DNA of 33,796 bases from Nanobdellota archaeon (GTDB lineage: Archaea; Nanobdellota; Nanobdellia; Pacearchaeales; GW2011-AR1). This document shows positions 31,690 through 33,563 of this stretch, in pieces (positions within the stretch are counted from its first letter, which is position 1; each line of letters starts with the position of its first letter). The notes beneath the pieces are model-generated. The model did no database searches and was not told the origin of the DNA. It was given only the letters and a program-made list of their open reading frames with translations. The DNA lies in contig JAHIRT010000063.1 in assembly GCA_018818285.1 (NCBI GenBank), forward strand, positions 1 to 33,796, in the 5' to 3' direction. The position numbers and the translations under genes are program-made.

Positions 31690-32097
31690 ATGAATGAACA
31701 AAAAATTATTGTGTCAGGAAAGAGAAAAAGGTGTGTAGCGAGAGCAATGATAACTACTGGAAGTGGTAAAATTATAATTAACAAAAGACCTTATGAATTA
31801 CTAAAAGGCATAAGAAGATTGATAATTGAGGAACCATTAAGAATAGCAAAGGAAATATTAGGAAAGATAAACTACGATATTTCTGTTACAACAAAAGGAG
31901 GAGGGCAGGAATCTATGATTGAAGCATCAAGACTTGCTATTGCAAGAGCTCTTGTCGAGACAAGCAAATCAAAAGAATTAGAAAAAGCATATCTTGATTA
32001 TGACAGAAATCTTTTAGTTGCAGATACAAGAAGAAAAGAAGTTTATAAACCAGGGGACAGCAAGGCGAGGGCAGCAAGACAGAGTAGTAAGAGGTAA
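31690..32097 (+). CDS. rps9: 30S ribosomal protein S9
   Basis: VSGKRKRCVARAMI…GGGQESMIEASRLAIARALVE…DTRRKEVYKPGDSKARAARQSSKR. Confidence 0.97.
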   Translation: MNEQKIIVSGKRKRCVARAMITTGSGKIIINKRPYELLKGIRRLIIEEPLRIAKEILGKINYDISVTTKGGGQESMIEASRLAIARALVETSKSKELEKAYLDYDRNLLVADTRRKEVYKPGDSKARAARQSSKR

Positions 32098-32140: not shown

Positions 32141-32500
32141 CTACTTGATTTTTTTTGTAGGTAATTTATTTCTTAAAATAGGATAAGAATCTCCTGTAAT
32201 TAATCTTCCTTCAGCCGGAACACATATTTCTTTTTGATAAAAATCAACTGATTTTTCTAACTGGCCCTCTCCTCTTTCTTTAAGATTCTTTTCTCCATTT
32301 GATTTGTATTCGACTATTACAACTTTTCTGGATTTTAACCAATAAATCAAATCAACAGAAGTATAAAATGAACCTCTTTTAAATAAGGCCACCTCTACAG
32401 ATGATGTTAAAACCTCCTTCTTTTGGAGTCCAATTATTTCAGGATGTAATCTTAATACTTCAAGTGCCCTTCTATGCAAACTTCTTTCCTCTTTTGCCAT
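32141..32500 (-). CDS. PD-(D/E)XK nuclease-like protein (start MAKEER preferred)
   Basis: TSVDLIYWLKSRKVVIVEYKSNG gives D…ExK; downstream Q (EGQLEKSVDFY). Confidence 0.55.
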   Translation of the reverse strand: MAKEERSLHRRALEVLRLHPEIIGLQKKEVLTSSVEVALFKRGSFYTSVDLIYWLKSRKVVIVEYKSNGEKNLKERGEGQLEKSVDFYQKEICVPAEGRLITGDSYPILRNKLPTKKIK

Positions 32501-32562
32501 AAAAATTAAAAGAATTTTTAGTTTATAAAAATAATAATAAACCAGCATATATAATAATAAGC

Positions 32563-33084
32563 TTATTTTATTCCTAAACCCTCTAATTTATTCTGAACTT
32601 TGTTGAATAATTCTGATGAGATTATTGGTTCATGATTTCCTTGTAAAATTTGTCCATTGAATTTAACTTTTCCAATATTGGTGAAATTTCTTAGAATCTT
32701 CTTTATTCCATTGACTGAAAATCCATGCTCTTTTGATAATTTGTTTAAGCTTATATCTTTTTCAAGAAAATCCATAAAAATTTTCTGAACTTTTAATTTT
32801 TTTCCCAAATCTAAAACTAATTTTTTATTTTCAATCTTGTATCCAAAAGGTGCTCTTGAAATCACATTTCCTTGTTTTACTTTTTTTTCCATTCCAATAA
32901 AATTTTTATTTGTTTGAAATTTTCTAAAGCTTTCTAAAGTCTGCCAATCTAATTTTTCATTAATATATTTTTCAAAATCTTCTTTGTTGTCTGGAGAAAA
33001 CTGAGCACATATTTTACATAATAACTTGTCAAATCTTTTTAAATTATTTGAATCTTCATAACTGCATTTTTCACATTTGTTCAT
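32563..33084 (-). CDS. zinc ribbon fused to a large-serine-recombinase 'Recombinase' domain, lacking the resolvase catalytic domain
   Basis: CEKC…CKIC N-terminus; ISRAPFGYKIENKKLVLD…VQKIFMDFLEKDISLNKLSKEHGFSVNGIKKILRNFTNIGKVKFNGQ…HEPIISSELFNKVQNKL matches the PF07508 pattern by eye. Confidence 0.75.
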   Translation of the reverse strand: MNKCEKCSYEDSNNLKRFDKLLCKICAQFSPDNKEDFEKYINEKLDWQTLESFRKFQTNKNFIGMEKKVKQGNVISRAPFGYKIENKKLVLDLGKKLKVQKIFMDFLEKDISLNKLSKEHGFSVNGIKKILRNFTNIGKVKFNGQILQGNHEPIISSELFNKVQNKLEGLGIK

Positions 33085-33134: not shown

Positions 33135-33563
33135 ATGGGATTAATAAAAATATTCTTTTGTGTTTTCTTAATATTTGTAATCATTTGTTTAGTAATTGCA
33201 GTATACTTTTATAATTTTCATGTTTTCAAAACCTTGAGAGTCTGCATTTCTAATGATGTTCAGGGAACTACGATATCCTGTTCAAATAACCAGGATTGCA
33301 TTAAATTAGTAAAAGAAAATATAGAAGAAATGAAAAGTTTGGGTAATCTTCCTGATTTCATGATGGTGAAAATAGATGAAGTTTTTAGTAAAATTGTTTA
33401 TTGTGATTCTAATTGTAAAATGAAAAAAATTTATGGTATGGGTTTTGGAGGAGTAGAGGAAGCTGAATTTTGTAAAGAATTGGAAGAAGAAATTAAAATA
33501 GAAATCAGAGGTAAGGAAGGTTGGGAATTTTTGAAATTTATGAAAGATAGTAAATTTGGTTAA
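33135..33563 (+). CDS. hypothetical protein with N-terminal TM anchor and several Cys
   Basis: N-terminal hydrophobic segment FFCVFLIFVIICLVIAVYFYNF. Confidence 0.5.
   Translation: MGLIKIFFCVFLIFVIICLVIAVYFYNFHVFKTLRVCISNDVQGTTISCSNNQDCIKLVKENIEEMKSLGNLPDFMMVKIDEVFSKIVYCDSNCKMKKIYGMGFGGVEEAEFCKELEEEIKIEIRGKEGWEFLKFMKDSKFG

Follow-up and report, generated by a model that had tools for sequence, protein, structure and literature searches.

What does the DNA-binding domain of a serine recombinase do once it stands in an archaeal genome as a protein of its own, without a catalytic domain? The question is raised by a gene near the end of the window, by which we mean the whole stretch of 33,796 nucleotides analysed here (positions 1 to 33,796 of contig JAHIRT010000063.1, assembly GCA_018818285.1, Nanobdellota archaeon). 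Its 173-aa product, which we call the RD-only protein, consists of a shrunken HNH-like zinc hairpin followed by the DNA-binding domain of serine recombinases (RD):

32563..33084, minus strand: RD-only protein, 173 aa (ORF and translation; PF07508 match)
32578..32895, minus strand: RD DNA-binding domain, residues 64-169 (PF07508 over residues 95-168; A118 integrase alignment; Foldseek match to 4kis)
33007..33075, minus strand: paired CxxC, residues 4-26, aligned with the HNH zinc ligands of relatives, HH segment missing (alignments)

Profile search matched PF07508 to residues 95-168 of this protein (E 2.1e-8, 34.7 bits, against a curated cut-off of 21.1 bits), and phmmer aligned residues 64-169 with the RD of the A118 serine integrase (PDB 4kis, E 6e-4). 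The predicted fold points the same way, as its strong PDB matches in Foldseek are complexes of large serine recombinases with DNA only (best E 8e-5), for an AlphaFold model that is weak overall (mean pLDDT 62, three sequences) and was used for the RD core only. The RD ends at about residue 169 and the protein at residue 173, which leaves it without the C-terminal zinc-ribbon/coiled-coil part. A catalytic domain with its Ser nucleophile is absent from the RD gene and its flank, the upstream side of which is occupied by an opposite-strand ORF (33135-33563). Throughout the home genome (82%-complete assembly) no resolvase catalytic domain (PF00239) was found at E<=10, and the RD gene is the single PF07508 locus. 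The two core claims of the initial annotation, a recombinase DNA-binding domain and a missing catalytic domain, are both borne out by these results. It had named beforehand two outcomes that would speak against it. A decayed catalytic domain upstream, the first, was found neither in the flank nor in the 82%-complete genome, and a lack of PF07508 similarity, the second, is contradicted by the profile match.

The N-terminus had been read as a zinc ribbon. Neither C4-x2-C7 nor C23-x2-C26 varies in the two named relatives closest to the RD-only protein, and in the alignment its CxxC...CxxC coincides with the zinc ligands of the relatives' HNH domain (CQKC...HHI...LCSICH), which is complete in some of them (PF01844, E 8e-12 in L049). 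The segment with the HH core is missing in the RD-only protein and in many relatives, and a profile search with PF01844 gave no match for the RD-only protein. The paired CxxC of the earlier reading stands, but the alignments and the PF01844 matches in relatives argue against a generic zinc ribbon and for a degenerate HNH, and the element would be better described as a shrunken HNH domain from which the catalytic part has been deleted. Among relatives, the N-terminus may be a full HNH, a coiled coil or a serine-recombinase catalytic domain, and its type switches 23 times on the tree. Fusions of a full HNH domain to the same RD occur in L078, L079, L081, L082, L083, L084, L087, L089 and L091; genes of this HNH-RD type often share an operon with a compact serine recombinase, and it is possible that their products are RD-targeted nucleases.

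RD relatives are present in 112 of the 180 genomes of the home organism's family, which, like all genomes compared here, are draft assemblies. Close matches in named genomes belong to Candidatus Pacearchaeota, and matches at E<=1e-12 are confined to the home family in a sample of 200 genomes of the order that includes few from outside the family. The initial annotation had suggested a survey of DPANN archaea; in the genomes compared here, those of the family and the sample of the order, the protein is conserved, with a spread that is that of one archaeal family and not of DPANN at large. Reading frames are open in nearly all RD relatives, and dN/dS in close pairs, where computable, is about 0.08-0.13: the RD gene is under purifying selection and is no relic. 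The suggestion that a mobile-element module had been exapted holds good in the sense of a domesticated and conserved gene. In the tree of RD sequences, the RD-only proteins fall into a single clade (SH-aLRT 92), except for some HNH-RD paralogues and one zinc form that sit with a clade of serine recombinases; the catalytic domain was therefore probably lost a single time within the RD-only clade, with the N-terminus varying later. Support is lacking (12) at the node uniting the RD-only clade with those serine recombinases whose RD is most similar. We also considered a viral source of the RD-only form and set it aside, as viral contigs gave distant matches only (22-31% identity), which read as ordinary phage integrases.

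Around the RD gene, the window contains the following genes:

31690..32097, plus strand: ribosomal protein S9, conserved landmark adjoining the RD gene (ORF clustered with S9 of 54 other loci)
32141..32548, minus strand: small protein with a PD-(D/E)XK-like pattern, VDLIYWLKSRKVVIVEYKS (translation read by eye)
33135..33563, plus strand: predicted protein of 142 aa whose N-terminus includes a hydrophobic segment; its gene is divergent from the RD gene

The protein at 32141-32548 has no Pfam match, and a protein of this type recurs beside RD genes in several loci, as an optional neighbour; for the protein at 33135-33563 there was no convincing Pfam match. About 70 loci extend as far as S9, and in most of them the RD gene is found directly downstream of L18e-L13-S9 and is usually convergent with it, the loci having been chosen for containing RD genes, so that synteny counts describe that set. 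In many genomes 0-40 bp separate the stop codons of S9 and the RD gene, which disfavours the idea that an island boundary with attachment sites lies between the two genes. The next conserved landmark past the RD gene is a pair of convergent genes for coiled-coil/HTH proteins, CC5 and CC10; in many genomes Cdc6/Orc1 and the small subunit of PolD come next (the names Cdc6, PolD and ORB were assigned by reading the sequences). The window contig (C23) ends shortly after the RD gene; on a second contig of the home genome, C3, XerA, dif, three repeats, CC5 and CC10 follow one another as expected, with no Cdc6, and we infer from synteny that C23 and C3 join.

The linkers of CC10 (L099:3539-4243), CC5 (L099:4411-5256) and their relatives encode repeats at the DNA level, (ACAG)n in CC10 and GTTCAAACAGGT-type units in CC5. 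Codons in CC10 oppose background usage (GAC 71 versus GAT 8, CAG 72 versus CAA 34), as if the DNA word of the linker were itself maintained.

A single recombinase is encoded between the RD gene and CC5, either a tyrosine recombinase of the XerA type or a compact serine recombinase of about 255 aa made of a catalytic domain and an RD. Among 77 loci scored, 33 have Xer, 36 the serine recombinase and none both; the remaining eight have neither, several of them being cut by a contig end. On a ribosomal-protein tree of the species, the recombinase state switches 16 times. The serine type is over-represented among genomes that have no tyrosine recombinase at all (15/21, Fisher P 2e-7), with the list of serine-type genomes compiled by hand, one of the 21 not identified by name, and Fisher P values resting on phylogenetically non-independent genomes. 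The XerA on home contig C3 matches that of Pyrococcus abyssi (PDB 4a8e, E 5.5e-45). The home genome has a second tyrosine recombinase, on a contig without landmarks of the locus (G000:C57, L098).

Each recombinase type comes with its own kind of crossover site. Many Xer loci carry a dif-like palindrome, found with a 6-bp spacer at G000:C3:5993-6016 in the home genome; the dif of G116 is perfect and unique, its runner-up having four mismatches. In a minority of Xer loci the scan gave only a promoter half-site or a poor match, and in a few it found no dif within 3-4 mismatches. At most serine loci the site is a dyad particular to the type, TTTAGGGTGCCCTAA or TAAGGGTTCCCTTA. The recombinase sites overlap the promoters of their own recombinase genes.

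Adjoining either crossover site, in Xer and serine loci alike, are one to four copies of a 17-bp repeat, ACTWAGGTTARCTWAGT, often 350-500 bp apart. Typically 3-5 kb separate this array from Cdc6/oriC. A dif and a repeat could both be called in 15 Xer loci, and there the repeat nearest to dif lies at a median of 142 bp (permutation P 0.001); where cargo displaces the recombinase gene the first repeat stays near the crossover site. Genome-wide, ACTWAGGTTARCTWAGT occurs at <=1 mismatch in 68 of 180 genomes, that is 67 of the 112 with RD proteins versus one of the 68 without, and a reversed-pattern control gave about a dozen scattered matches. Beside CC5, at <=2 mismatches, it is found in 49/52 RD-positive loci versus 1/30 RD-less loci, for a pattern derived from RD-positive loci and then counted in the same loci. 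The sole RD-less locus with the repeat is that of G101, a 75%-complete assembly whose congener G058 has an RD gene. ACTWAGGTTARCTWAGT tracks the presence of RD proteins and not the type of recombinase. Of 60 RD-less genomes, 43 have CC5; since it persists without the repeat, and the repeat is also found in serine-recombinase genomes, ACTWAGGTTARCTWAGT is disfavoured as a site of CC5 or Xer. The word ACTTAGG is common to ACTWAGGTTARCTWAGT and the promoters of serine recombinases, and is not found in Xer promoters. L105 and L106, with nothing but a serine recombinase of another RD clade, are without the repeat; L089, whose RD-only protein groups weakly with another RD clade, retains it. RD presence changes only six times on the CC5 tree, giving two supported independent pairs, too few for a significant sign test, and the association of repeat and RD is therefore phylogenetically weak.

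In many loci, ORB-like TTTCCATRGGAAA elements lie upstream of cdc6. In L048, L049, L068, L073 and L115 they are paired, with a trailing GTGTG, and such pairs are a likely replication origin of the home family. Skew changes at the locus in G002, in agreement with an origin (half of the contig was sampled), and is equivocal in G116. The recombinase locus is close to Cdc6 and the ORB-like elements in many loci, unlike the characterised archaeal dif sites, which are in termination regions (PMC2958812).

The initial annotation had suggested an architectural or regulatory chromosomal factor. An architectural role is plausible, but the neighbouring Xer/dif or serine-recombinase locus and its repeat array, which lie beyond the window contig, were for that reason missed, and they point to a more specific job. 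We propose that the RD-only protein, as a domesticated serine-recombinase DNA-binding domain, would bind the array of 17-bp ACTWAGGTTARCTWAGT repeats beside a chromosomal site-specific recombination site; in the array of the home genome (G000:C3:5255-6130), the proposed target of the 173-aa protein is ACTTAGGTTAGCTTAGT. Once bound, it would serve as an accessory or architectural factor for the resident recombinase, either XerA at dif or the compact serine recombinase at the dyad site, and help to assemble or restrict the synapse, the outcome being that joined sister chromosomes would be resolved. As the repeat tracks RD proteins and shares ACTTAGG with serine promoters, the economical reading is binding of the array by the RD-only protein, with a role as accessory factor at the crossover site next to it. 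The repeats are spread over about 1 kb, more than in the accessory sites of classic resolvases. This counts against an accessory role, as do the phylogenetic weakness of the association of repeat and RD, the position near Cdc6 where characterised dif sites are in termination regions, the synteny-based link between C23 and C3 in the home genome, and the repeat retained in L089. On balance, we give an even chance to a serine-recombinase-derived accessory factor that binds the array and assists chromosome resolution without FtsK. More tentative is the broader picture, possible though somewhat doubtful, in which resolution would be organised at an oriC-proximal array bound by a descendant of a serine recombinase, with XerA/dif and the compact serine recombinase, with its own site, swapped many times about that fixed array.

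Some of these observations would also suit other functions. Repeats spaced at 350-500 bp in the vicinity of Cdc6 and ORB-like elements, the coiled-coil forms of the RD protein and the skew change at the locus in G002 are what a centromere-binding or origin-organising protein might display, the array being an oriC-proximal partition site and the recombination site a mere neighbour, as in plasmid ori/par/res regions. We consider this unlikely, if deserving of attention, given that the first repeat keeps close to the crossover site despite the cargo that displaces the recombinase gene, and that skew in G116 is equivocal. A protein that descends from an autoregulatory serine recombinase and regulates transcription of the recombinase gene would fit the overlap of recombinase sites with their own promoters and the position of the first repeat, less than 200 bp from the recombinase start in several loci. 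It fits poorly with repeats up to about 1.2 kb away, and where cargo separates dif from the xer gene the repeats remain with dif, which makes such a regulator improbable.

The protein might instead be the remnant of a selfish RD-aimed HNH nuclease that is now a passenger, as the full HNH motif kept in relatives and the 23 changes of N-terminal type on the tree could suggest; the strong constraint and fixed position of the HNH-less forms render this very improbable. Finally, we reject a decaying integrase or chance ORF, to which we accord hardly any probability: the missing catalytic domain is what decay would leave, but constraint (dN/dS about 0.08-0.13), frames open in nearly all relatives, fixed synteny, and the lack of a catalytic remnant in the flank or the 82%-complete home assembly all oppose it.

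Taking the RD-only protein as an accessory factor, how does it compare with known systems? It has the same RD, by sequence and predicted fold, as large serine recombinases such as the A118 integrase (PDB 4kis), but neither their catalytic domain nor their C-terminal zinc-ribbon/coiled-coil part, since it ends just past the RD; in contrast with serine integrases, no integrated element is seen. With HNH endonucleases (PF01844) it shares the paired CxxC zinc ligands, and relatives fuse a full HNH to the same RD, whereas the RD-only protein is without the catalytic HH segment. PepA, ArgR and ArcA act as accessory proteins when Xer recombines the plasmid sites cer and psi, and by analogy the role proposed here would resemble theirs, binding DNA that flanks the crossover without taking part in catalysis; however, the RD-only protein belongs to an unrelated, recombinase-derived family, and its repeats are spaced wider.

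In bacteria, Xer recombination is controlled by FtsK. Archaea have XerA and dif but are without FtsK, and according to a review their dimer resolution must be regulated in another way (PMC8371274). The RD locus offers a candidate regulator of archaeal dimer resolution together with its likely DNA sites and a natural exchange of two unrelated recombinase classes around the same sites, which makes the question of regulation testable. If true, this would be a chromosomal serine-recombinase system replacing Xer; no report of such a stand-in was found in the open-access literature searched, most subscription journals being outside its scope. As in the XerA/dif system of Pyrococcus abyssi (PMC2958812), the RD locus has a XerA homologue and a dif-like palindrome; it differs in that its dif lies near Cdc6 and the likely oriC, the characterised archaeal sites being in termination regions, in that a repeat array and an RD protein are added, and in that a serine recombinase replaces Xer in about half of the RD loci.
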